DNA from: Chondrosia reniformis
Lineage: Eukaryota; Porifera; Demospongiae; Chondrillida; Chondrillidae
Assembly (NCBI GenBank): GCA_947172415.1
Contig: OX359191.1
Span: 7,797,130-7,861,129 of the forward strand
DNA: 64,000 bases
Reading direction: 5' to 3'
The translations under genes were made by a program, and so were the position numbers. The stretch's first letter is position 1. The number at the start of each line of letters is the position of its first letter. The notes under the pieces are model-generated. The model did no database searches. It saw only the letters and a list, made by a program, of their open reading frames with translations, and was not told the origin of the DNA. This document shows positions 3,420-63,590 of this stretch, one piece after another.

Positions 3420-4145
3420 TATATTTCCACTTCCATCACCACCGCGCTGGTGGCAGAGTGATGCGAGTGAGAAGCGTATAGAATAAAAGGAAGCTTCTGG
3501 AATTGGATCAATTACAACGGGTAATCAGTTTTTTCTTTTTTTTTCTTTATCATTTCACAACGTAGTTGAGTATAAATAGTCCATTTTAACATGACCATTC
3601 AGGCCTGCCAGCGTGGAGCCTCGTGTAAGGAAGTAAGTCCGAACTCGTTGGCTTGGCAGTGTCTAGGTTCCGTAGCTGCCCTGTATCGGTTGGTGCCATG
3701 GGGATGTGCTCACCAATTATCGATTTATCGATACAACGGAACCCGGGGAGGGATAAGGCCGGTTCTGTTACTCTGTGACTACCAAAGCCGAAACTGCACC
3801 AGTTAGGCGTTACCAACGATCCTGGCCCCAGACGACCAGCGATGGAAGGACGGCTCGCATTGTGGATGGTAACGTGAACTCCCTGCGTCGAGCAAAATCC
3901 AAGTCACACCTCCTCGTGGTGCTCGACGGTAACAGCAGTCTCTGCTGGCTAACGTGACTGGTTCTTTTCTTTTTTCTTATCGTCAGTATATCGCGATATT
4001 TGTTGTAACCCACTGAGAATGGACGTTTTTCTCTTTTTTCCTTATCGTTAGCATATCGCGATATTTGTTGAAGGGTCTGGGAACCCATCAGGATCCAAAC
4101 ACGCTTGGGTCGTTTTTTCTTCTTTTTTCTCGTTGTGATATTCAA
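3420..4145. repeat. GC-richer island with T-rich 65-bp duplication, unclassified repeat
   Basis: From about 3590 to 3960 the base composition shifts to markedly higher G+C than the surroundings, with no convincing open frame on either strand. It is followed by T-rich sequence in which CAGTATATCGCGATATTTG or a near copy occurs twice (around 3985 and 4050, 65 bp apart). The block at 3685-3720 (TTGGTGCCAT ... GTGCTCACCAAT) recurs at 4398-4432. The whole looks like a decayed mobile element or its terminal repeat, but I cannot name a family. Confidence 0.45.
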
Positions 4146-7800: not shown

Positions 7801-10800
7801 AGTCCCAGGCATTGGGCGCATCAGGTCAACTTGCATGTACTGGTGAAGGTACTGCAAAAAGGAGAGAAATAAAGTGATTTAGTGGGGAGTATCAAAAGAC
7901 ATAGAGAGCCTATACATTTTTCATTTCAGTGTAGCTTTTACCCTGATAGTTCTAACTGCCTATCCTATATTATCTAAAAAATCGGATTTTCATGGTGTTT
8001 TGATAATCAAAGGATCAAAAATTGATCTTGTCACATGATGAAATTACGCAATGAAAGGGTCTGATTTCGTCAGACTACCCCCTCAGGCCCTGTGATGTCA
8101 TAAACTTCACACATTGAGGAAGAAGATCTTGTGGATGGAAGCTATATTATCCTGGTTTCTATACCTTATCACTGTCACTGTAGCTGATAGCAGAATAGCT
8201 GTCTATTTGTGTCATAATGTTCTTGACTTTATCCACTTCTTCCTGCTTTTGCAGTATTGTATTCACAGCATGAACAAACTCCTCAACTTCAGTAAGCTGT
8301 GAATGGAACAAGTAGAACATCAATAAAATAGTCTGCATGATATGTAGCTAAAAATATCTCTTACTATTTCTTCCATTCTATTTCTCTGGTCAGGATCTTG
8401 GACTATTTTGAAGATGTTTTTCAGGAGCAAAGGATACTTGGTCAATCTCTGCATGGGCTTGGCAAGATAATCCTTCAACCTAAGACGGGCACATTCAGGC
8501 CTGCTCTCACACCACTGAAAATACATGGAGGAGAGTAGATATAATTGGGTCATAGATACTTGACCATAAACCCAACTTGAAAGTACCTGAAGATATGATT
8601 TGAAATCAGCATTTTTCGTGGCATCATTGAGTTCTTTTAAATTCTCTGCTTCGAATATGCAATGTTGCTCGTAGATCTCAAATTGTGTACTAAACTATAC
8701 AGAGAGAGAAAGTGATAATATTCACTTCTAAGGTACTGCACCTTCAAAAGCCCCTAAAGTAATAGCAAACCTAAAGTATGCAGTTACCGTAGTTACAAAC
8801 TAATCAAACAATGATACAAATAACTTAAAGGTAATTTTTAAAAATATCTGTTCTCTCAGCCCCTTTGGATAGAGAGAAATATAAAAGGTAACTTATATGA
8901 TTAGTGAGTAATTGCATTATATCTGTGTATAAGAAAATGGTGTTTTGAACTATTCATAGACTCACGTCCACAAAATTTGAGAGTAGTAGGTCAAACTGAA
9001 AGATGGATTTTCCGGCATATGCTTCTTCCCAGCAAGGTTGTAAAGTTGTGTGCCAGAAGCTCTCATGAGCTGTGAGTATGTTCTTCATAGAACCAAAGAT
9101 ATTCTGATAGTTAACTTCTCTCATTAGACCGGCTGACATTATGTAATCTAAAGCTCTCATGAACACCTACATACGTAAGACATGAGAGTATATTACAACT
9201 GTATCTATGGGAAATCTCTGAGATATATTATGCCAAACCAGCCAAGGGACCAAGGTCTCATCTTGGCTGGGGGACCGAAGTCCTATTAAAAATGGCCACC
9301 AATGATCACCTTCCGGTCATCCAAGATGGAAAAAATCCTTAAAAGAACCACAAATAGCTGTTTCACCCTCCTTAGGGCTCATCAGTGTGGTACACTTCTG
9401 ATGTGAGTGTGGATGACTGCCTTCAGCTCTTTATTATTATCATTATCATATATTTGATTTAGTATTATCTGTCCTCTGTAGCTTAATATCGTGTAAACAT
9501 TATTCAGTTACTTGCATATTATACAACACTAAAGCAGCAACCAACACTCTTTATATGACAATTCTGATTACATAAGCCATGTTCTTTCAATGCAATATAT
9601 TCCTAATTATTACTTAGCATGTATGTACATATATTGTACGTACATAATACAGTAGTAATCAAGGCAACCTTGATCACATGTACGTATGTATGTAAGGGTC
9701 CCATCTCTACTGCAGAGAATGTGTACTTACGTACATTTACTACTATTTGGAGTTGATGGATGTGAGAGTGCTCTGTTTGGATTAGTTCCCAGATATACTG
9801 CTGCAGATCTTCCTCCCAGCCTCTCTTCTCTGTCAGAGATTTCTCAATTTCTGGTTTTACCATCTCTCTCCATGATTTAGGCTGTAATTAAAGTATATGT
9901 ATGGATGAATGCATGTTTAAACATTAATATATGAAGTCCAAGTGATAATCAAACCACAAGTAATTACAGACAAATATTATGTAGTTGAAAAAACGTGAAA
10001 GTTTCTTAATCTTGAAGCTAGAATAGCTGGTTTTGCCCACAAGTGCCCTGTTACTAAATATAAGCTACAATTGCCACAGCAATGCTCCATACATGTTTCC
10101 CCTCTTATGCTAACTACAAAGTAACTTGTTTCTATCCAAACTAAATAAATAAATACTCAGTAATCAAGGCTCAGCCCATTTACAGCTGGGAGGAGCCATC
10201 TTGATCAATTTAATACACCTAGTCATGCACTAATCGTTATCTTAATTCAACAGTTTATTTTGCAAACTTACTAGCTGTGGTAATTGAAGCTGAGGTTGAA
10301 ATCCTGATTCATACCCAGTCTCAGAGTTCATCAATGGTGTAATTCCATGATTTTCAAAGTGTGTGAGGCACTGTTGTACTGATGTAATTGAAGATGAGTT
10401 AGCCTCCATCTAAAGTAATATGTACGTGTAAGTAAAGACATACGTACTATAGGAAATTCAAATATGGCCAAAAGCTTATAAAGCAGTTTTGAGGAAAAGA
10501 TGACCAGTACATGTGACAGGTTTACTGAAAACAATATATTGTGTAATAGCCTTCATTTTGTACATATATATGATGTATTTGCATCAAAGAAGAATTTATA
10601 ACAATACAAGCTTACTTCACCACTACCCACTATTGGTTCTGGAGATCCGACAAACATATCAAAGTCCACTAAAGATATAAACAGAATATTGTATGATTAT
10701 TCAATGGGAATTCCGATGTACATATTGTATATAGATATGTAATCTACCTATATATAAGTGAGAATGAAATTCAGAAAACCGCAACAATTTTAATCATTCT

Positions 10801-13800
10801 ACAAGTAATCAAGGCAACCTCTTTGCTATTAGTTGTTCCACAACAAACATCCTAACAGACACAGTAAATGATACATACTAAGCTGCAATGAAGAGCATGT
10901 GCGCACCTTTAATATTGATCACAATATTTTGTCCCAAAACGGCCGTTACTGGAACATCCAAATCAATGACCTCATCTTTATCAACGTTTCTTGCCTCTAT
11001 TTGGTCATAGCTGAAGTTGCAATGATCAATCTGAAGCAGTATGGGATTGACAATTTCCCTGTAATTTGAGGGAGTGGGAGAAAACTGTCGGTAAACTGCC
11101 AAATTCTATACCTTTTAAAACAAAGTGAATTATTAACATTACAGTAATATTTAAGTGATGTGGCAATTCTCTTATATATTGTATATATTTCACAAATTGG
11201 TTTTGAAATGGATCACCTTTACTACCTTCTGTCTACATTTAATAAAGTGTAAAATGGTAAAAGGTCCATATTATGAGCTATGTATCTTTGAGCAATGGAC
11301 AGAATTTAAATGATTCAATGGTTCACTAGTCATATTTGACCAATTTAAAGTATTATTTGCTTCAGGAATTTACAATAAAAATGTATAAGATAGGGGATGT
11401 GTATATATTACTTATATATAATTCTGAAAAGATATGTATGCATGGCCTTGTATATTTTGACATGCTTTGTCTGTCAGTCATTGTAACAGTTATTAATATT
11501 ATTAGGAAATATTTTACAGTTCTACGTATGTCTAAGAAATACTCTACATGCATAATGTAGTAATGATTTAATAATTAACCTGACTGTCTTTTCATCCATT
11601 AGTTTTATCATTTTATGTAACAGAGGAAGACCATTCTTTTGAATTGTCAAGTAAATAGAGTCTTCAGTAATTAGATTAAGAGCTGCACACTAGCATGAGT
11701 AAACGAATAAAGAAAGGAATTAGTATAACATGAAGGCAAAGGCCAATAAATTTAATTAAATGGATATGTTACTGTAATTTCATTAGAAATGAAACTTGAG
11801 TGGCTACAATGTACGTAGCTTATAATTGGCTCCTTGGTGAATTTAGTTCTCAAGGGTCTTGCTCAGTAACTGATTGACGGATTTTTAAGAAATATCAATA
11901 GTCTTAAGAAACCAACAATAAACTACATTTTAGATTCTTCTAACTTGTTGAGACATCTCACAGATAAATAACATGTAGACATCCTTAGAGACTATTATAC
12001 TAGGCTTAAGGTTCGTCAACTAAATAGAAGAATTCCTTCCATAGAACATTTTTACATAGCTTATATTTACTGCAGATCATAACAACGGATATTATTTTAT
12101 CAGTGTATACATAAGTATACCCTAAAAACTCAGTATTATTATAAAAATACGTACGTTTGGGATACTTGGTGAATGTTGTCCATTTCTTCTTCTGAGAGTA
12201 AAATTTGAAGGCGTGATTACAGCATTTCTTCTTCGTATGTTAGTTTGTGAACTGCATTAAGAAAACAAACTTAAGGGTACTAAATCTGAATCATTTAAAG
12301 CACATAATCTGGTTATTACAAGTGACCAAATTGAAGTGATAAGTATATTTATCTAATGATATTCATAGGCTCTGTGTTCGTAGGACAACAGTGGGAGGAA
12401 CAGCATATTTGATAATAAACAGGTCAACATCATTCCAATCCAGACCACCATATGCATCAGCAGTGCAATGTATGAGTTATATAAAACACTTTTTCCTCTT
12501 TCCTACCAAGATTCTACAGTAAAAGACCTATAGAGACTAAACCTAGTGAGAGCTTTGGATGAGGATACAAGAGTTAATTTATTCTTCTGGTCCAGATAGC
12601 TGTTTCTATAGGAATACCAACCTCTTCATTAGTGACCCTGGAAGTCTTTATAGAACCACATTATATCCTTAGATCCTATGTATGTGCCCATTATGATAAA
12701 TGTGGTTATAATTAATTTATAGCTATGAATATCAAATATACCCAAGTGTATACAAAACATACGTCAATGCTTCTAGTCCTGATTCTGAAAACTGAGCTTG
12801 GCGCAACCTGGAAGGCAAACTAGAAGTCAGATCAGCTGGTTCATAAAACTCTCCACATGACTTCCTTGTTGCAGCTGTATCAGACAGAAAACATCAGATA
12901 TGTAGTCATGGTACTCTACCAGCCTCTTTGGCTGCAACAACAGGTTATCTAATAAGGCTCCATGTTGCAATGTATACCCCACTTTATATGTAACGGTTGT
13001 AGTTGCCCAATAACCACAGATACACATGTATGCACACAATTTCATCAAGGTAAGCTGTTAACATTAATAACTGTAGGCACATTGCAATCACCGATTGATT
13101 GTTTATGCTATCATCCTCTAATTTTGAATGTGCTCTTTTTTCATAAATGTTGAAGAAGGAGTAACTTCTTTGAAGTATAAAGATCAAATGATCAATCTAA
13201 CTGTATCTTTATAAGTATGTATGTAAATAATGTACAAGTAAGTTTAGATAGAGAGTATCATGATCACATGACATACGTAAACCATTTCTGATTTTTCTCT
13301 TCCCCCAATATCAAACTGTACACAAATTAAAAGCACATTGAGTGTGTTTTAAATCCCATCCTGGTATTAATATTGGTGAAATTAGCAAGATTGCTTGAAG
13401 TCTCTGAAATTTATACTGATACTGAATACTGAATACTAGCCTTTCTATATTATATACTATCAAATGGCAATTGTTATAACTCCCAATTGCAAAGTTCCCA
13501 AAAAATTCTAAAGTAAAGGGTAAATAATTTAGCAATTATTTAAAAGGATAGGATTTGAGAGGTTGTTAATTTTGCTACTTAACAGATCACCAGATGTTTC
13601 AGCTCAAGATAGGGTCTTCATCAGTGATATACAGGTGATCTAAGTTCACAAGACATAGTTCAAACACTAAGCCATACTGGTAGCTCCACACATTCCTCTA
13701 TTGTTAACAGACATGCTTCCAGGCTACTGAACTGCACATACTATTATATGGTATGGTAACAGCTGAAGATGCACTAAATGGAATTCATTTACATAACAAC

Positions 13801-17550: not shown

Positions 17551-19593
17551 ATGGCTTCCGAGAGAAGCGAAGACGAACTCGGTCAAAAATGGGACAGATG
17601 TATTGCTGATACAATAGTGAAAACTGGTATGTAAAGTGAAGATAAATTAGACCTAATGTTTGGAGAACTATCTAGACTGGTGGGTCTCGACTAATTCGTG
17701 TGCAAAGAAGTATGCATCAAAGCTACAATCAAAGTCAATGTATCATGTAAATTTAGAGTAGAAAATTCATGTAAAACAATCTGTAAATATTGCAACAAAG
17801 AAGCATTGCATCTGAGAGTTGTCTATGTAGTGTTTCTCCTTAATTACTGAGACTAAACAGATTCAGTTTAAATTGTGTTATGTATGTAGAGAGATAAGGC
17901 ATTTGGTCATTTTTAAGTCAAAGTACTGGTGTTCAATCTCTTTATTCGATGGGAACTGGATGTCTAAAAATGTGCTTTAGTTATAATAGTCAACTGGTCT
18001 GTTGGTTTATGATGTTGTGATGATGTAATAATCCAATTTCAGGTGGTCTCTAAAGTCTAAATATTATATTATATTACATTGCCTCATTTTTAACTCATTG
18101 AATTCTACTGAATCACACCAGCTGCAAACCATTTCCTACTTCTATTGATTGAATTAATTATCTATCTCTTGTCCTCTGGTTGCAGCGGATTCATAAGTTT
18201 CATATTTAAATCATCTTATGGCTGGCACTGCACTATAATACCATATATGGTAAGCACCCTATAAAAGGAGATCTACTGACAGTTGTGTACATGAGTATAC
18301 TTGGAACTTAGGAAGTTTAATGAAAGATAAGTGAAAGATTTGGATTGTGTGGTTGGTTGTTGGGAAAAGGGTTTATTTATTGACTTAACAATACAATGTT
18401 AATGGGGATAATTGGTATAATTTTATATCCCAGATAATTGGTATAATTTTATATCCCAGATAATTGGTATTTATATCATTTGGGAAGATTTATAGATGGT
18501 ATTTAGGTGTAGTGTCTTCAAAGTAAATTATCAATCATAAGATACATTGTCATAGTTTTCTTAGAATTTTCTTTTTCATTAGTGGTCATTTTGACCATCT
18601 CCCTTATATGCTGATAAGGAACCACTAAATTTTAGCTCCTGGGAGTACTTATAAGTAGTGCGGCCATTACGAATGAATGCCATACTGATGAGTCCTAACA
18701 AGGACTAAAACAGCTGTCTACGTCTTGCTACCATTACTACCCTCTGACACCTTTGAACTTACAAACAAAGTCCCCATCAAGTCTTTAAAGTTAGTTTTGA
18801 TTTTTTGTATACCTGATGAAGCTCAAGAATGGTGAAACGTTGTATTGAAGTTATTTGAAGTGAATAAGACGTGTGTTAAAAGTCCTAATAATACCATCAA
18901 CTATACAAGTAGCATGTCTAATAATAATTTCCATTTAATAACACACTACTGTTTTTAGAATTGCAAAGGGGAGATTTTGGTTCCCATTAAGTGGACTTCA
19001 GTTCCACCCACTAGCTCCTTGTGTTCCTCAGGAGCAACGAGTGAGTGGGTAGGTACATCCTGAGTCAAATATTATCCAAAGCTTTTAGATATGCCTCAGA
19101 TCCTAAAGTCACATATTTTTAGCTACACATGTACTTTTATAGGTGCTGGATTTGGAATAGGAGCAGTCCTCTCATTACTTTTGTTTAAAAGTAAGTTGCT
19201 GTATACATGCATGAATCACACTGCATTTGCTATCATACTATGTCTTTGTATGTACGTACAATTTTGTTGCACTTTTTTTCCTTTTTTCTCTTTTACCACA
19301 ATTCTCTTATGAAGGACTTAAGGTGTTAACTTAGTCTCCTTATAAGGAGAAGAGCTAGCTACTATTGACTGCTATATTTAAACCTGTATTAAAAGTGTTG
19401 TGTGTCATCATTCCCATTTCTTGATTCTCCTTATTTAGGGCGTCCCTGGCCAATGTCTTTAGGGTTTGGATTTGGTCTAGGTTTTGCCATGTCCAACTGC
19501 CAGCATGACTTTAAAAGAGTTCAAAGCCTGTATCTCAAGCCCATAAAGGTTTTTATGCACTACACCACTATTTTAGTAGGCTTAAGGCGATAG
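17551..19593 (+). CDS. MICOS10: MICOS complex subunit MIC10
   Basis: A small inner-mitochondrial-membrane protein that oligomerises to bend cristae junctions. Exons: 17551-17626 (MASERSEDELGQKWDRCIAD...), 19143-19190 and 19439-19593, all phases closing. The family signature is clear: ELGQKWDRCIAD, then two transmembrane hairpin halves carrying the glycine motifs GAGFGIG and GFGFGLG, then SNCQHDF. If translation reads through, the protein ends MHYTTILVGLRR with a stop at 19591-19593. Alternatively a weak donor (AAG, then GTTTTT at 19549) could splice to a strong acceptor at 19906 and end DPKD with a stop at 19919-19921. Length is about 94 or 80 residues, compared with 78 in human. Intron 1 (1.5 kb) carries two hammerhead-like motifs. 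Confidence 0.93.
18421..18472 (+). repeat. 26-bp direct repeat, about 2.5 copies
   Basis: The unit ATAATTGGTATAATTTTATA plus TCCCAG is repeated in MIC10 intron 1. Confidence 0.85.
18679..18728 (+). ncRNA. Hammerhead ribozyme-like motif with 4-bp stem II
   Basis: Order: GCCATA, CTGATGA, stem II GTCC/GGAC closing TAACAA, then TAAAAC (consensus GAAAC), AGCT, GTC, TACGTC. CTGATGAGTCC...GGAC closely matches known metazoan hammerheads. The G12 position is changed and stem I pairs only in part, so it is probably inactive. It is 130 bp upstream of a second such motif on the same strand. Confidence 0.5.
18807..18850 (+). ncRNA. Second hammerhead ribozyme-like motif in MIC10 intron 1
   Basis: Order: ATAC, CTGATGA, ~14 bases with poor stem II, GAAAC, GTT, GTAT. 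Stem I ATAC/GTAT is perfect. The direct arrangement with the motif at 18679 recalls the paired ribozymes in the terminal repeats of retrozymes and Penelope-like elements; that reading is inference. Confidence 0.4.
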
Positions 19594-26600: not shown

Positions 26601-29600
26601 TTACACTAACAAGTTGTTTGTTTTGGTTGAAAGAAGTTATTTTGTGTAAATTAATAGAGCAATTAATATTTAAATTACATAAACACATTTTTTCTTTGTT
26701 AAAGTGTTAGGTAGTGTAGATCATTCTATAAGTACGTATATAAAATGTTTCTGTACATAAGTTATAGTAATTCAATATCATTGAAAGTGAACTCAAAATA
26801 TATAGTTACATCAAAGGCAAACTAAACTTCTTTGATCTTATTACATCAAAGTATTTGGAAAGTTCTAATATTTAAACCTGTTTATATTGTAAATGTATAC
26901 ACAATTATTGCCCATAACGGGAAATTGTAATTGGAGTGAGCTGGTGATGCAATCTAGCTGAAAAGAAGTTTTACAATTGGTTACTACGTATTCATGACCT
27001 TAATCCGATTGGACTGTTAGAAGGTAGCCACAATGAGAAGCTGTATAGGCTGTCAGCTACTTTGAAGTTTAATTAGGTTTTCTTTGCATGTGGGACCTTG
27101 CACATAAGGCTTTATTAGATGTTGTACATAATTATGTCTCTTGATTTGTACATATGTGTGTATCACCTATGAATTTGATAGCTTCACACCGCCCACACAA
27201 GTTAAATAGTATACTGCAAGTCCCCAAGCACCCAACCGGAATAGGCTGTCTTAATTGGGGCTGGCTTGCAGAGAATGAATGTTATTTATTTGCTTCCTAA
27301 AGCATATGCTCTTAGGAATGTAGTAGCATTCAACCCCAGTCTTATAGGCCAAGTGAGAATTCTTTATTTCTTTGTAAGGCCAAGCTACCAAATGTAACTC
27401 CTTCAAATTACCATTCCACTATATTTTGGGATGTAAATCAGGAGTGCCATCTGTGTTACTTAAGAATGAAGATATCATTTGTACGTACGTACATATAAGC
27501 TGTGAAACTTCATTAATTAAAACCAATGTGGGACGAACTAATTAGCTACACTTATTTAAATTAACTATTGTCTACGTACGTATGTGATGTGATTATATCA
27601 TATTGGAACATTTATGAGTATTCTTTTAAATTAAAATATTTTATAAATTTAATCAGACTTACAATTAGCATGTTGAGTTAGAGAAATGGTAGATGTTGCT
27701 AGCACTCATAAATGATAAAAGGGTTTAATATCTATTCAATTGGTTAGTGAGACATAATAGTGATATATATACGTATTTTCATCTATATTACACTTACCTA
27801 CCTACCTACGTATATTACATATGTATACGTATATTACTTTATACAGAATTGTAAAGGAGGAGGTTACTGATGATAATTCCAAGCTGCCTCTTTTCAATGG
27901 CAGAATAGTATCATGGGTAAGTTATACATAATGTATCTACATCGTGCTCGCAGTATTATTGTATGAAGATAATTTAGGGACTTTTCGTTTCACTTTTAGT
28001 TGCTTTATGTTTGTATCTATGTACGTAGCTTGTTAGTGGAGAAGGATCAGGATCTGATACCAAATCAGATAAAGCTGGGAATGACAAGAGATCGTAAGTT
28101 TGTGGCTCTTCTGTTCTTCCTGTTCATACCACCCGCCCTCCCGCCCTCCCATCCATCCACACATCCACCCTACCCATCCATCCATCCACACATCCACCCT
28201 ACCCATCCATCCATCCACACATCCACCCTACCCATCCATCCATCCACACATCCACCCTACCCATCCATCCATCCACACATCCACCCTACCCATCCATCCA
28301 TCCACACATCCACCCTACCCATCCATCCATCCACACATCCACCCTACCCATCCATCCACACATCCATCCACACATGCATTTACTCATGAATCCATCCACC
28401 CACCCACCCACCCACCCACCCATCCATCCATCCACCCACCCACCTTCTTTGTTACTCAGACATAAAGGAAATGATGAAGACTTGTATGACGATACAACAA
28501 CGCTTGCTTCAGGAATCTCTGGAGGTATGTGTGATTATACTCATAAGGCATATATTATCCAGCACCCCTGCAATATTTGCTGGAACCTACACATATTTTC
28601 ATATACACACAAATATGTACACATGCATTATTATGTAAGTATGTGCAGAAATCTCATTGTGGAGTAGTAATCATCATATTTTCTGTACTTTTACTAGTAC
28701 CTCGAAAGCACAAACCTCGGCGCAAGCACCACCATAAGCGACCGGCTACCGACAGTGTATCACAGTATGGTACTACTGACACAGGAACTGAGATTGAAAG
28801 TGTGTGGGATGATTCTGACCTCTCTAGTATGGCATCTTTCTCAACGATGACAAGCATTTCAACTATTCAAAAGAATAGGCGAAAGGTGTTCAAGAAGACG
28901 AGACCCACCATGCCAAGGGTGTACTCCTCAACGACACTCGCTGAGTCCACTATTTCAGAATCAATGCAGATTATAACTACAGTACTGAAAATGGGTAATT
29001 TAACATTTGCTCATATATATACATATACTCATGTACGTACATACATATGACACAGTACGTATATTACTTTCCCTATCATTTTATGTACATGAAAAATCTA
29101 AGATACCATTTTCCTATATGCTATATGCCTATTCTGTAAAAGAGCCTATAGGGGAACTAAACCTGAAGAGAGCTTTTGGATGAGGATACAGGAGTCTTTT
29201 CTTCCTTCTTCTTTTCCCTTCTTTCATCTTCTTCTCCACTGGGTCAGACAGCCGTTTCTGGGAATTCCACCCTTCATCAGTGATCCTGGGAGTCTTTGTC
29301 ATTTTCTTTTTCTTTATCTTGATCTTCTGTGAATCCTCATGTTATACTATACACAAGTATAGCTGCCTTGAGTAGTTTTCAATTAATATAAGGGTTGGGG
29401 TGGTTGCCCCTCTCCTTTGAATATATTATATATGTATACATAATATACGTAGAGAAGGTCAAATTGTCAATTTCTGATAGCAAACAAGCACATTGAACTA
29501 CGTACATACGTACGTAGGTCACTAAGGTGACCCTCTCAAAATTTCATTTTGCCCCCTTCCCTGTCTAAAAGACACTCTAAATGTGCTATGTACGTATGTG

Positions 29601-32600
29601 CATACATATCTTTAGTGTTTAAGTGTGTGTTGTTAGTAATCCTTAGAGCTGTCAGTCCTATGGGAAAGATGTAGAACTGTGTAAAACAAAATACAATATG
29701 TAATTTGAGTGTGTTGGAGGTAGGAAGTACGTATGTTCATTACTCTGTTCGGCCAAAGTCTCCTTTTGAAGTTAGCTGATCCATGAAGCTACTTTGTTGT
29801 TGCAATCTTCTCTGGTTCCCCTCACCATTGTAGCCCCACTGTGCATGTAATTTTTCATTGTCTTACAGATGCTATCAGTTTCTTGGGTATCAACATAATT
29901 AATAAGTGTAGAATAACTGTCTTTCAATTTGTATACGCGAAAAATTTAAGATTCCATTTTCCTACATGCTATATGCCTATTCTGTAAAAGAGCCTATAGG
30001 GGAACTAAACCTGAAGAGAGCTTTGGATGAAGATACAGGAGTCTTTTCTTCCTTCTTTTCCTTTCTTTCATCTTCTTCTCCACATGGTCAGACAGCTGTT
30101 TCTGGTAATTCCACCCTTCATCAGTGATCCTGGGAGTCTTTGTCTTTTTCTTTATCTTTATCTTGATCCTCTGTGAATCCTGACATATGGCATACATATA
30201 CATATTTTCCTATTCACACACATAAATAGGTAAATGTTGTTTTAGGGTATTTAGGGTATTTAGGTAATTTTCGTTGTCTCCTGTTGTTTCACAGATGCCA
30301 TCAGTTTCTTGGGTATCAGTATAATGGGACAAACAGTGGAGGATGGAAGTGGAGGCATATTTGTGGGGTCCATTATGAAGGGGTAAGTTGTGAAGTATGT
30401 ACGTACATATGGTACAAATTATTGAAACGTGAACGTTGGTCGGGTATGGTACATTTATGTATAACACTTAAGGATCAGGTTATGTGTACATACGTATGCA
30501 TGTCTATGTATAGGTATACACACACTACACACATATGTACGTACGTGTGTAGTCAAATTGAATTTTGTAGTCGCAATGTCTGGTTGTGTTGTGGTTGATT
30601 ACCTTTCATTATTAACACAGACTGTAAAATATACACTGCAGCTTCCTACATACGTAACTACATTAGTGACATTACATGGTTATATACCTCCCAATTTAAT
30701 AACTAAACAGTAATGTTGTAAGTATGTACAGTATGTATTAATGTATGTAAGTATATACGTACCTGTATATTTTGGTGTTTGTATGTTTAACTGAATATCT
30801 AGCTCACCAGTAGTGTATGTACGTATGTATTCCGCTGCACTTCTGTCAAACCTGAATGTTTAGCTTTATTGGTGGCATGTACGTATGTTCTTCCTAATAT
30901 ATACACAGACAATCCTATTCATGTAGTTTGTAGTTATCATTTTTGTCTCATCACAGAAGTACTGAGACATAGTAGCAGTAATAGTACAAACATATGTGTA
31001 CCTTTAATGATATTCATGACATTGAACACATGTGACATTAAGACATTGCATAATTATAGACCATAGAGATCCTACAATTGAGCTATGGTATTATTATACA
31101 GACTCAGAACTTGAAGGTATTCATTGATAGAGTCACATAGGTATACGTAAAAGGCACTTTTAACTTTTCATGAACAAAATTAGTCTAGGGGTGCCTAATT
31201 CCACACATCTTCATTTTCTTGCTGTCTTGTCAGCACTTGTGTGTGTCTGGTTCTGTAGAGGTGCAGTTGCAGCAGATGGTAAGATACAGCCAGGGGATTT
31301 ATTGCTAAAGGTGAACGAGATCAACTTTGAAAATCTCACCAATGAAGAGGCTGTCAAAGCCCTGAGAGAGGTGGTCCAACAGTCTGGTCCCATCACCCTT
31401 ACAGTGGCCCGGCCAGTGTATGACCCCATTGAGGACTATAACTTTGAACCAAGGAGTAAGTCAACGTGCACTTTCTATTGCAGCTTTACTGATGATAATG
31501 TTAGATTGCGGATTATACACTTAATATTGCCTGGATATGTTGTTACATACGTACGTATCTCAGTTGAATTTGTATGCATTCAATGTTAGAATGCTACCCT
31601 GATATATGTATATACGTAAATACACATGTACATATATAAAATGGATCAGAGCTGTACTTTCTTTCAATAGATGAACCTATTCAACCAATGGATCCTGGGT
31701 CCTGGGTTCTACAGACCAATCAAATGGCAGGAAAACGTAAGTAGTTTCAGGACCTCCAATTTCCTACTTCTCTTCTTCGCCACTGGGCCAGACAGCTCTT
31801 TCTGGGAAGTCCACTCTTCATTAGTGACTCTGGGAATCTCTGTCGTCTTCTTGGTCTTTGTCTTCCTATGTACGTACGTATGTATATCTGTTTATATACA
31901 GTTTTGTAATTGTAACTTCTGTTCTTATTGCCTTTAGAGCCAATTTCATTTTCTCATGGACGGAGCCCCACTATGAGTACTATGACTTCAGATTCTGGTA
32001 GCCAAGCAACCAGTAACTCTATGCCTGAATCTGAACGTAAGGATATTGGTAAATTGTACATTTCTTGTACGTACGTATATTTAAATTTGTATGATTATAC
32101 ATATGTACATATAGTATTTTTGTATTACATACAGCAGGGTTCCATTTAAGGGATGGGAGACATGCATTCACCCATATTTCAGCATAACATGGTTTTGCTC
32201 CCCTTGAAAATTTCCTCCTAAATGACACTCTATTCACTTTTTGTATTGTAGGTGACTTAGTGACAAAGCTGACTTTGGCCACCCCGATTCACATTGTTGC
32301 TCGGGTAATGTCCTCTCCCAACTCTGGTCTGGAACGCAAGGACCACAAATGGCTCAAAATGGTCATACCAAATTCATTTCTAGGTAAATTAATAGCCTGT
32401 GACATACGTGTGTATGTACGTACGTAGGTGGTGATTACATTATCTCTTGTCTATGAAAATCTTCTGATTTTACATAAATTGCATACCTACGTACGTACAT
32501 AGCCTCCCATTTCTTGTTCAAAGGAAGGCATAGATTATGTATGCATGTATACAAATGCTAGTCTTAGATACGATATCAGTGAACATGCATGTGCATATAA

Positions 32601-34308
32601 TTTGACTAGACCTCTATTCTAATATAATGGTAAACTAAATTCTTAATCAGAAACAGCTATACCATGTCTTACTTAAATAATAGACTTGACTTTTGTATTT
32701 CTAAAGCAATCCTGTATATAACATTACATATTAATCTACAGGCTCAGTGGCTGTGGATTGGCTCTTCTCAAAGGTAGAGGGATTTATTGATCGGAGACAC
32801 TCCAAGAAGTATGCCAGTTTGATGCTGAAGGACGGCTACATTAAGCACACAGTCAATAAACTGTCGTTTTCAGAACAATGCTACTATGTATTTGGTGACG
32901 TGTATGCACCAGTAAAGAAGAAGTACGATGCTGATGCACTACAGAAAGGTGATTGCAATATTAAGTGTTTTGGCACATGCGTTACATTAGCAGAGAATGC
33001 CTTAGTTATGGCTTAAATTATCAATAGTTTCATTTGATTTCCCAGTCAAAAATTTATGTATAACACTTAGGATCAGTTTATGTGTACACACGTACATATA
33101 CATGTCTATGTATAGGTATATACCTATGTATGTACATATGAAAAATCTAATATACCATTTTCCTACATGCTATATGCCTATTCTGTAAAAAGAGCCTATA
33201 GGGGAACTAAACCTAAAGAGAGCTTTAGATGAAGATACAGGAGTCTTTTCTTCCTTCTTTTCCCTTCTTTCATCTTCTTCTCCACTGGGTCAGACAGCCG
33301 TTTCTGGGAATTCCACCCTTCATCAGTGATCCTGGGAGTCTTTGTCTTTTTCTTTATCTTGATCTTCTGTGAATCCTTGGCTCTCTATGCTAAATATGTA
33401 CTGTACGTGTGTAGTCAAATTGAATTACTAATATCTTTGTGTTATGTATACATTATCTTTACTCTTCTTTTACTTCACAGAGTTGAGTCACGTAGCCATT
33501 AGCAGTGAGGGTGGAGGTGACAATGATACCATCAATGGACTACCCTCTGCAGTCCCATGGACCTCTTCTGACGAGCACCTCCCCTCTTACAGCGAGGTGA
33601 GACACGGGTCCAAAGGTCGCACTGGCACGCCAGACTCTGCCAGTAGCTCTGCCAGCAGCAATGGAGGGAGAAAGAGTGGCGGAAAGAGTAACAAGTTGGC
33701 CACTGTCAGAGAGCGCCAAGGGAGTGTGATGAGTCAAGCCAGCACGAACTTCACTAGTGTGTCTCAGCAAAGACCTGGAGGAAGACCAATGCCTGATGTA
33801 GATCAAGTGAGAATGTCAACCATTGCTGCATTATGTGTAGAATATTGCTATAATTTCCAAATTTGTATGTACGTACGTACGTACGTGCATAAGAAAGAGT
33901 TTCTGAAAAAATGTGCAGTAATGTATAAACCAATATTATGTATGTATGTACACTACATTAATCCCAAATAATTTTTAGTGTATACGTATACGTAATTGGC
34001 TTTTACTGATATTACAGCAGTAAGTGTGAGATTGAAAGAGTGAGAGGGTAATATTTACACTACATACGTACGTATGTTATACATATACGTATACGTAATT
34101 CCATAGCACAATTTGTATACAATATAGTGTATGTATACCATATTAATGTGATTCATTGCACAGTTCTCTGCTTCCCCATCTCATGCTCTAGGTGAGTATT
34201 GTCAGTTCAAGAAGTATAGCACAAATGAGGAACATGTGTGCCTCCAGAGTCAGTTTCCAGGCTGCCTTAGAGAACAGCCCCTGTGAATACTTTATTGACT
34301 ACATGTAG
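23643..34308 (+). CDS. DVL: Dishevelled (DIX-PDZ-DEP), 13 exons
   Basis: Cytoplasmic hub of Wnt signalling that links Frizzled to Axin and to planar polarity outputs. Exons: 23643-23857, 27847-27916, 28029-28093, 28460-28524, 28698-28994, 30295-30382, 31259-31455, 31671-31736, 31938-32036, 32252-32383, 32742-32948, 33481-33806 and 34192-34308. All phases close, giving 647 residues. The DIX domain (~residues 20-95) has [14 protein letters not shown] and [12 protein letters not shown]. Ser- and Arg/Lys-rich linkers follow. The PDZ domain (~227-318) has the FLGISIMGQ carboxylate loop and [12 protein letters not shown]. The DEP domain (~395-480) has [18 protein letters not shown]. The C-terminus EYFIDYM resembles the conserved Dishevelled end (EFFVDVM). 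Intron 1 is 4 kb with minisatellites. Confidence 0.97.
24925..25125 (+). repeat. About 40-bp tandem repeat, 4-5 copies, in Dishevelled intron 1
   Basis: Unit TTAAGTATATAGAGTGTAAT then GTATTAGAATGCTATACAG, nearly identical copies. Confidence 0.88.
25490..25970 (+). repeat. 41-bp minisatellite, about 11.5 copies
   Basis: Unit GGCACTCCTAAGTATATATA then GTACCTCTTAGTGTGGTATAA. Three variants (GGCACTCCTAAG, GGAACTCCTAAG, GGCACTCCTGAG) alternate in the middle as GGA-TAAG / GGC-TGAG pairs. That points to expansion by an 82-bp dimer. It lies in Dishevelled intron 1. Confidence 0.93.
25971..27846 (+). other. Remainder of Dishevelled intron 1
   Basis: AT-rich with many TACGTA words (for example 26430-26460, 27480-27490, 27570-27580, 27800-27835). 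No exon recognised. Confidence 0.5.
28130..28450 (+). repeat. 29-bp CCAT-rich minisatellite merging into (CCAC)n
   Basis: The unit CCATCCATCCACACATCCAC then CCTACCCAT is repeated about 8 times, then runs of CCAC. It is in Dishevelled intron 3, ending a few bases before the acceptor at 28459. It produces His-Pro-Ser/Thr-rich spurious open frames. Confidence 0.92.
29093..29345 (-). repeat. Interspersed repeat family A with hammerhead-like core (29241-29286)
   Basis: Copy of a ~240-bp repeat found also at 29938, 33140 and, in part or diverged, at 12500, 31741 and 54650. On the minus strand the core is GGATCA, CTGATGA, a stem II built on GGG/CCC, GAAAC, GGCT, GTC, TGACCC. Stem I pairs GGATCA with TGACCC with one mismatch. 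The copy lies in Dishevelled intron 5. Confidence 0.75.
29869..29987 (+). pseudogene. Decayed duplicate of the first part of the Dishevelled PDZ exon
   Basis: A TTACAG acceptor followed by 31 bases is almost identical to the start of the true exon at 30295 (4 mismatches), encoding DAISFLGI like the real one. Similarity also extends into the intron upstream (TAATTTT...TTGTCT). Homology is lost after ATAAT. The frame continues 38 codons from the split codon into repeat family A and ends in TAA at 29985-29987. Use of this acceptor would truncate the protein after the DIX domain. Confidence 0.75.
29938..30182 (-). repeat. Interspersed repeat family A, second copy, hammerhead-like core 30085-30130
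   Basis: About 90% similar by eye to the copies at 29093 and 33140, between the decayed and the real PDZ exon of Dishevelled. The core on the minus strand is CTGATGA ... GAAAC, AGCT, GTC. The stem III sequence is the palindrome ACAGCTGT. Confidence 0.75.
31741..31862 (-). repeat. Interspersed repeat family A, partial diverged copy
   Basis: Retains the ACTGGGCCAGACAGCT ... CTTCATTAGTGACTCTGGGA part. The core box is CTAATGA and GAAAC became GAAAG, so a ribozyme would be dead. It begins four bases after the Dishevelled exon ending at 31736. Confidence 0.65.
33140..33378 (-). repeat. Interspersed repeat family A, third full copy, hammerhead-like core 33287-33332
   Basis: In Dishevelled intron 11. 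The core is GATCA, CTGATGA, GGG/CCC stem II, GAAAC, GGCT, GTC, TGACCC on the minus strand. Confidence 0.75.
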
Positions 34309-36659: not shown

Positions 36660-37660
36660 AACAACTTGCTGAATAGGCCGGGTCGTGTTCTGCATGTTGT
36701 CTATTGTTCTTGAAAAGGACCTCGAAAACAATAAGCAAAATTTTAATTCCATGATTTTCCGCCAAGTTCACGATGTTTCCCGCCGACCATTTCTAATAAA
36801 TAGTCGAGGACATTTTCAGTCTTTGGCCTCCGGGCTATCAACTCTGGAGGTCTACTTTGGTGTGGATCGATGCGCCAACCGTGGTAGGAGCACGACCATG
36901 GTACCATGCGACGAAGGGTCATCGGTGTTCGTATAGTGGGGTGGTCTCTCTACCTATGGGTTAGTGCCTGGAGATGTATCTCACTATTAATCCTGCTTGT
37001 GTGTTAAATTGGCACTTGCGGATTCTTGCTATACGACCCGTACCTGGAGGAGCGTGGGCCCAGTGCCACTACGTAGTCGGTCGGGAACCCCTGTTGTAGG
37101 CTGCAGCTTCAGGTTGGTTTGGAAGGCATTTGCATTTCAATTTGTATTCAATTTTCCTATCCATGCATCAATGTAGTATTTCATTGTATATCATGTATTT
37201 TGAATTCTTTTCTTATAGTTCATTGAACTGATGGGTCCCTACTCTAAAGCGCCTGGCCGATCCCAATGAGTTAAAGTCTGTGTGCAGTGTTCCCAAGCTA
37301 CGTTGTGTGCACATGATGATTCTCATTGGTGGGAGTTTGTGGTCCGCCAGGGTCGGGCTTGTTCTGTTCGTAGCGTGGCAGGGCAAGACTAGTAACTGGT
37401 CAGAGGTCGGTCAGGTACGCCGGATCGCTCCCGTGCAACTTCTCTTACGACGCAAGTAGTGGAAGTGTCAAACAGAGTTGAGAAACCGGAGGCCATTTGG
37501 GGCACGAAGTACTTCTACCTCCTCGTGGTGTGCCCTGGGGTCACCTTTACTACACTCAGTAAAGTGATGCGAAACGAAGTACTGCAGCACCGTTCCAGTA
37601 ACACTCAAAAGGATCGAGAAGATACAGCATGGTCTCTTTACAACCATGAAGAACTTGTTT
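36660..37660. repeat. GC-richer island, unclassified, possibly decayed retroelement
   Basis: Base composition rises sharply (for example 36780-37120 and 37260-37620) with no long open frame of recognisable kind. The word CCTCCTCGTGGTG at 37519 recurs in the island at 3590-3960. It lies just upstream of the Penelope-like fragment on the same strand and may be part of the same dead element, which is inference. Confidence 0.35.

Positions 37661-51245: not shown

Positions 51246-63590
<12,345 letters not shown>

Follow-up and report, generated by a model that had tools for sequence, protein, structure and literature searches.

A hammerhead-like motif in a Penelope-like terminal repeat of Chondrosia reniformis and its possible imprint on insertion 5′ ends

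What hammerhead ribozymes do for the Penelope-like retroelements that carry them is an open question, and it is raised anew by a repeat, here called family A, in the genome of the sponge Chondrosia reniformis. The stretch analysed (the window) comprises 64,000 nucleotides (nt) of contig OX359191.1, positions 7,797,130 to 7,861,129; the genome searched amounted to 117.4 Mb in 15 contigs. A preliminary description of the window had assigned a type I hammerhead to family A and had taken the family for either a non-autonomous element or a terminal repeat of a Penelope-like element. The explanation that we prefer, with a probability of roughly 0.6, is that family A is the pseudo-long terminal repeat (pLTR) of an autonomous Penelope-like element of Naiad-type domain order, in which cutting by a variant hammerhead would set some of the 5′ ends of new insertions. 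With more than 1000 copies, a sharp cluster of 5′ ends at a start site and a second peak of 5′ ends at the predicted cut, the family makes the role of such hammerheads directly testable.

The terminal repeat and its parent element

Three copies of about 240 bp had been described on the minus strand of the window, and all three are present: a young, 5′-truncated pLTR copy at 33140–33395, identical to the young family sequence over 256 nt (100%) and with its 3′ end at 33140, and two further pLTR copies at 29091–29337 (93.5% identity to the same sequence) and 29939–30181 (92.6%). A genome search with the copy at 33140 returned 1832 candidates, of which 40 were scored, all at 100% identity after rounding. 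A 20-nt pLTR marker, located only downstream of the predicted cut, occurs at 1743 exact places genome-wide.

In three larger regions (L031–L033) two pLTR copies lying 3.46–3.50 kb apart flank an open reading frame (ORF), and this tandem arrangement is observed in family A together with a series of 5′ truncations. The domain order, established in L031–L035, is GIY-YIG, a CxC-bearing linker and a reverse transcriptase (RT) with YIDD, all in one ORF. Pfam places GIY-YIG at residues 126–159 with 22.6 bits, exactly the cut-off, and returned no RT family for the ORF at E values up to 1; its C-terminal part is recognised by a PADLOC RT model (E 8.4e-8), and no credible match to the ORF emerged among PDB sequences. 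For the endonuclease piece 152 matches were counted in the genome; among those listed, nine lie in frames open for 997–1010 codons. Among older relatives, an RT fragment with 74% DNA identity lies upstream of copy L229, while none was seen upstream of copy L230; of three distant 3′ regions fetched, one (L228) carries the motif discussed below with one change in stem II and two (L226 and L227) showed no match to family A, and no conclusion is drawn from these regions. The parent of family A is an autonomous Penelope-like retroelement, with an N-terminal GIY-YIG followed by an RT, and family A itself is its pLTR.

Naiad elements, reportedly described by Craig et al. in 2021, are said to combine an N-terminal GIY-YIG, a CxC linker, an RT and pLTRs, and the clade has reportedly been found without canonical hammerheads. 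The family A element resembles this layout in all four features and differs in having a non-canonical hammerhead-like motif. It may be called Naiad-type, a clade name that rests on the domain order. A literature search of incomplete coverage found no paper on hammerheads in Naiads.

The two ends of family A behave differently. One 3′ end, ...TTAGATTTTTC, is common to all 30 loci read in the sense (minus) orientation, with AT directly 3′ of the element in 29 of them, and the 5′ end is variable. Eleven of the 30 loci begin about 240–246 nt from the 3′ end; others begin farther upstream, the longest exceeding the 1.74 kb read and reaching the RT reading frame. A TATATAAG box lies about 30 nt upstream of CCAAGGATTC, where the short copies begin. 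The distance of the 5′ end from the predicted cut was also recorded in 60 copies drawn by the 20-nt marker (40 consecutive listed places on contig C1, one skipped, and 20 more, five of which were older-type places picked out of order). It is 0 nt in three copies, 5–66 nt in 13, 79–95 nt in 25 and at least 109 nt in 19. The cluster at 79–95 nt resembles a transcription start site, and we infer that transcription begins there.

These ends suggest the following mechanism. Transcription probably starts within the pLTR, about 30 nt downstream of the TATATAAG box, which would serve as promoter. The RNA would carry the variant hammerhead about 90 nt from its start, and a fraction of transcripts may be cut between GTC and TGRCCC. 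The element's RT would then copy RNA, cleaved molecules possibly among the templates, from the fixed 3′ end (GATTTTTC) into AT or ATG sites, and the complementary DNA would extend to whatever 5′ end the RNA has. Most new copies would therefore have their 5′ end at the start site and some at the ribozyme cut, with diffuse truncations accounting for the remainder.

A hammerhead order with an unusual stem II

On the sense strand the motif reads, in order, GGRTCA, CTGATGA, GGG/CCC, GAAAC, RGCT, GTC and TGRCCC. The older subfamily (20 loci) has GGGTCA CTGATGA AGGGTGGAATTCCCA GAAAC AGCT GTC TGGCCC, from which the young subfamily departs with GGATCA, GGCT and TGACCC. In an alignment of 74 copies (20 older, 50 of the 60 sampled and four from the window; at a threshold of 36 of 46 matches, ten sampled copies and the window copy near 12500 were dropped) the hammerhead-conserved positions are 93–100% uniform. 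The conserved core, CUGANGA ... GAAA ... UH, is present in order both in this alignment and in a structural scan; CTGATGA and GAAA, on which the preliminary assignment leaned, thus belong to the family consensus. Its expectation of paired stems holds in full for stem I of the older form, whose six pairs include one U·G, and less well for the young form, which has one A·C mismatch. Stem III consists of two pairs around AGCT or GGCT, and very short stems III are a feature of Penelope-like hammerheads as a class; the palindrome ACAGCTGT in stem III would allow dimers to form. With RNAfold, the older form takes the same topology as family B, the canonical hammerhead repeat of this genome. Between the subfamilies, gaps occur on both sides of the motif and none inside it.

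The exact hammerhead order had been claimed for all three long copies in the window, and it stands for two. The copy at 33140–33395 holds the motif at 33287–33332 (minus strand, CTGATGA starting at 33326), with cleavage predicted between 33293 (C17) and 33292; that at 29091–29337 holds it at 29241–29286 (minus strand, CTGATGA starting at 29280), with cleavage predicted between 29247 and 29246. In the third, the motif at 30085–30130 (minus strand, core pattern at 30098–30124) has, by alignment, one further broken pair each in stem I, whose arm reads TGACCA, and in stem II, which reads GGG/ACC, and it was not recovered by the full structural scan of the window.

A structural descriptor accordingly matches two sites in the window (cores at 29280 and 33326), and it matched none in 60 dinucleotide shuffles of the window. 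On random sequence with matched dinucleotides it gave 63 matches in 758 Mb (window composition) and 85 in 601 Mb (pLTR composition). The chance rate of such an order is 4–7 per 100,000 random 250-nt elements on both strands, a guide rather than a p-value, the descriptor having been written after the motif was known and tolerating the odd stem II. The simpler pattern CTGATGA...GAAAC occurs six times in the window against 0.09 expected.

Several results weigh against a functional hammerhead. Standard hammerheads close stem II with a Watson–Crick pair at 10.1–11.1; in family A the GGG/CCC stem closes on A·A, with an A at the one position in 73 and at the other in 72 of the 74 copies, and so lacks that pair. 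The Rfam hammerhead models, whose application the preliminary description had proposed as a check, gave no match over family A in the window at E values up to 5; with the limit raised to E 10, they gave none in one full element and in the 14 older-subfamily loci (of 20) that were scanned. On this point the hammerhead assignment did not survive. The minimum fold of the young form is not the hammerhead, and neither form is more stable than its shuffles (z 0.0 to 1.2), compared with a z of −3.3 for family B. No covariation was seen: the subfamilies differ in the stems only by U·G to U-A and G-C to A·C, neither change being compensatory. Nor does the motif stand out by its conservation between the subfamilies: 3 of its 46 positions differ, compared with 16 of 171 in the remainder of the repeat, which is not a significant difference (p 0.77). 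Given the closing position of stem II and the covariance score, family A ought not to be classed among the canonical type I hammerheads. What is left of that assignment is the core order and, as described next, copies whose 5′ ends lie at the predicted cut.

5′ ends at the predicted cleavage bond

Among the 60 sampled copies, three (L086, L106 and L108) begin exactly at TGRCCC, the first base past the predicted cut. Genome-wide, starts were counted where the marker was intact and both bases preceding the given start differed from the family. By this count 114 candidate copies start at the predicted bond, compared with 14 one base upstream (offset 1), eight four bases upstream (offset 4, another TG), 21 one base downstream (offset −1) and six starting seven bases downstream, at a further TG (young subfamily only, flanks unchecked).

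Flanks were checked in 40 of the 114 bond starts (all 40 being plus-strand places) and in 14 of 14, eight of eight and 18 of 21 starts at offsets 1, 4 and −1, respectively, the three unfetched places at offset −1 belonging to a likely duplicated run. By blastn, the flanks were unlike the element and not duplicated in 28, 8, 6 and 12 cases (bond and offsets 1, 4 and −1), and 24/40, 7/14, 6/8 and 12/18 were finally kept as clear. The bond starts excluded by blastn were 11 with element sequence upstream and L178, a duplicate of L177; those excluded by eye were L146 and L149 (apparent internal rearrangements), L155 (near flank shared with L154) and L159 (only 2 nt of flank), and one near-duplicate was removed by eye at offset 1. 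L183, one of the 11, is a young copy nested within an older copy; its start at the bond may be genuine. The 114 also include tandem arrays (eight listed places near 757 kb of contig C2 and three near 5308 kb of C7) and a run of ten at 2.55–3.52 Mb of C2 that is probably one amplified insertion. With the obvious arrays set aside, the bond has roughly 50–70 clear starts, compared with 6–14 at each neighbouring offset. A recognisable 3′ end is present in 19 of the 24 clear bond starts and is nearly always the usual one, so that these copies have the appearance of reverse transcripts of the 3′ cleavage product.

This excess of 5′ ends is the strongest evidence that the motif cuts. Taken with the order of the motif and the chance estimate, with which it agrees, it suggests that the family A motif probably works like a hammerhead, and self-cleavage of family A RNA at the predicted bond is likely.

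The precision of the footprint is limited by the target sites. Of 89 non-tandem listed bond starts, 45 have CA before the bond, and CAT or CATG is a frequent target sequence; the T or TG at the junction may therefore be the target's, which leaves the end uncertain by 1–2 nt. A start one base downstream would be scored as a bond start if its flank ended in T, as 14 of 24 flanks of start-site copies, read by eye, do. Such miscounted next-base starts might explain some 20–40 of the bond starts, not obviously all. Bond starts, moreover, are not significantly tied to an intact stem I: 17 of 26 at the bond are of the older type, compared with 12 of 25 controls (p 0.26; tallied by eye, the 26 including L155 and L159). 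Finally, no copy of the canonical family B consensus starts at its own bond, a count that is ill-normalised because the family B total is uncounted. A bond footprint is hence not general to hammerhead repeats, and its cause in family A stays a matter of inference.

These limits, together with the A·A in stem II, the silence of the Rfam models and the lack of extra fold stability, give some room to an explanation that we regard as unlikely though deserving of attention: the element would be the same Penelope-like one, its motif dead or fortuitous, and the pile of 5′ ends a product of microhomology of the element's TG with CATG-like targets or of RT stops at folded RNA. The CA before TG and the absence of a footprint in family B would both fit. 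The two other TG positions, with eight and six starts (the latter young only) to the 114 at the bond, argue against microhomology alone. Stops at the entry of stem I would place starts near AGTGG, and the single such start tested (TGGAG) is rare; the order of the motif is, furthermore, improbable by chance.

Cutting by a variant hammerhead remains the reading that we prefer for the bond starts. The broader proposal, that a Penelope-like lineage with an N-terminal endonuclease possesses a functional hammerhead variant whose stem II closes on A·A, and that its cuts set the 5′ ends of some insertions and can be read from the genome, is tentative and falls a little short of even odds. If true, it would extend ribozymes to a Penelope-like clade reportedly without them, and self-cleavage in living cells would be readable from the genome alone.

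The closest known comparison is the canonical Penelope-like element PAc of Anolis (PMC11167929), which likewise has a hammerhead in its terminal repeat and tandem pLTRs. PAc has a C-terminal endonuclease, whereas GIY-YIG precedes the RT here, and the A·A-closed stem II is a further difference of the family A element. For PAc, cleavage proved dispensable in vitro, and the cut was reported to be neither the beginning nor the end of any RNA read; genomic copies of family A, in contrast, begin at or within 1–2 nt of it.

Local tandem duplications inside family A copies were also noted (L156, L158, L164, L166, L170 and L184), in which the second unit begins exactly at TGRCCC.

Family B, retrozymes and the remainder of the window

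The Rfam hammerhead model RF00163 gave 73 scored matches in this genome, 51 of them over the cut-off; among 14 control genomes it had matches in 11 and none over the cut-off. The loci read belong to family B, with units of about 350 nt, sometimes in tandem, and a (TGA)n-like tail; the hammerhead pattern was recovered in 29 of 30, with stems mostly GCCATA/TATGGC and GTCCT/AGGAC. Family B thereby resembles the animal retrozymes of PMC7229834. Family B and the older form of family A have GAAACAGCTGTCT in common; an alignment of the two families placed stem II out of register, homology was not established and nothing is drawn from it.

Could family A itself be a non-autonomous retrozyme, spreading as small circular RNA by means of a canonical type I hammerhead? 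High copy number, short copies and the hammerhead order recall the animal retrozymes of PMC7229834, as does the segment from GAAAC through AGCT to GTC around stem III, shared with the retrozyme-like family B of the same genome. The long copies encode an endonuclease and an RT, however, and this ORF largely refutes the idea; unlike those retrozymes, family A has an ORF-bearing autonomous parent, and its sampled short copies mostly start not at the cut but at the promoter-like site some 80–95 nt upstream of it. There is also no Rfam hammerhead match. Family A is neither non-autonomous nor free of ORFs with monomers in register with a ribozyme, as a retrozyme should be, and we consider this origin improbable. 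Of the two alternatives in the preliminary description, the terminal repeat is borne out by the pLTR–ORF–pLTR arrangement; the retrozyme is not, because the parent element codes for proteins of its own, and the short copies are pLTR retrocopies, mostly from the TATA-spaced start. That the motif is coding sequence merely resembling a hammerhead is scarcely credible: an open frame spans it in the young sequence, but the four subfamily changes in or next to it (ACT/ATT, ATC/GTC, CGG/CAG and GAC/GGC) all alter the amino acid, and the RT frame stops upstream of the 3′ pLTR.

Diverged copies had been noted near 12500 and 31741, and both exist. An older-subfamily copy lies at 12522–12649 (minus strand, 77% identity; with 23 of 46 motif matches it was left out of the motif alignment), and an older-subfamily fragment at 31771–31865 (minus strand, aligned at 90.6% identity to the older-subfamily sequence). 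Their core does not keep the claimed motif: it reads CTAATGA in each, with loss of the invariant G5. This looks like private decay, because A occupies the G5 position in only five of the 74 aligned family A copies; CTAATGA as an ancestral dead core was rejected on the same count. A further older-subfamily copy, noted earlier near 54650, is present at 54623–54747 (minus strand, 91.6% identity), its first base lying some 8 nt to the 5′ side of the predicted bond.

Family B has two degenerate copies in the window. One, on the plus strand at 18601–19071, has its motif at 18679–18724 with T at the G12 position; the other, on the minus strand at 9222–9394, belongs to a second family B subfamily and is like locus L037. 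Further CTGATGA...GAAAC strings lie at 13596–13624 (minus strand) and 18813–18838 (plus strand), neither of which matches another stretch of the window or any locus fetched. The exons adjoining the repeats encode PDZ and DEP domains, which suggests a Dishevelled-like animal gene.

Other ribozyme-like and repetitive sequences were encountered in the window. A hepatitis delta virus (HDV)-like ribozyme, RF02682 (HDV-F-prausnitzii), is matched at 3887–3959 on the plus strand of this animal DNA with a score of 47 bits (E 1.5e-5; cut-off 44), and a weak second match at 37499–37574 reaches 24.7 bits, below the cut-off. An (ACAT)n array of 823 nt occupies 62668–63490 and accounts for the mir-297-like Rfam matches found there.

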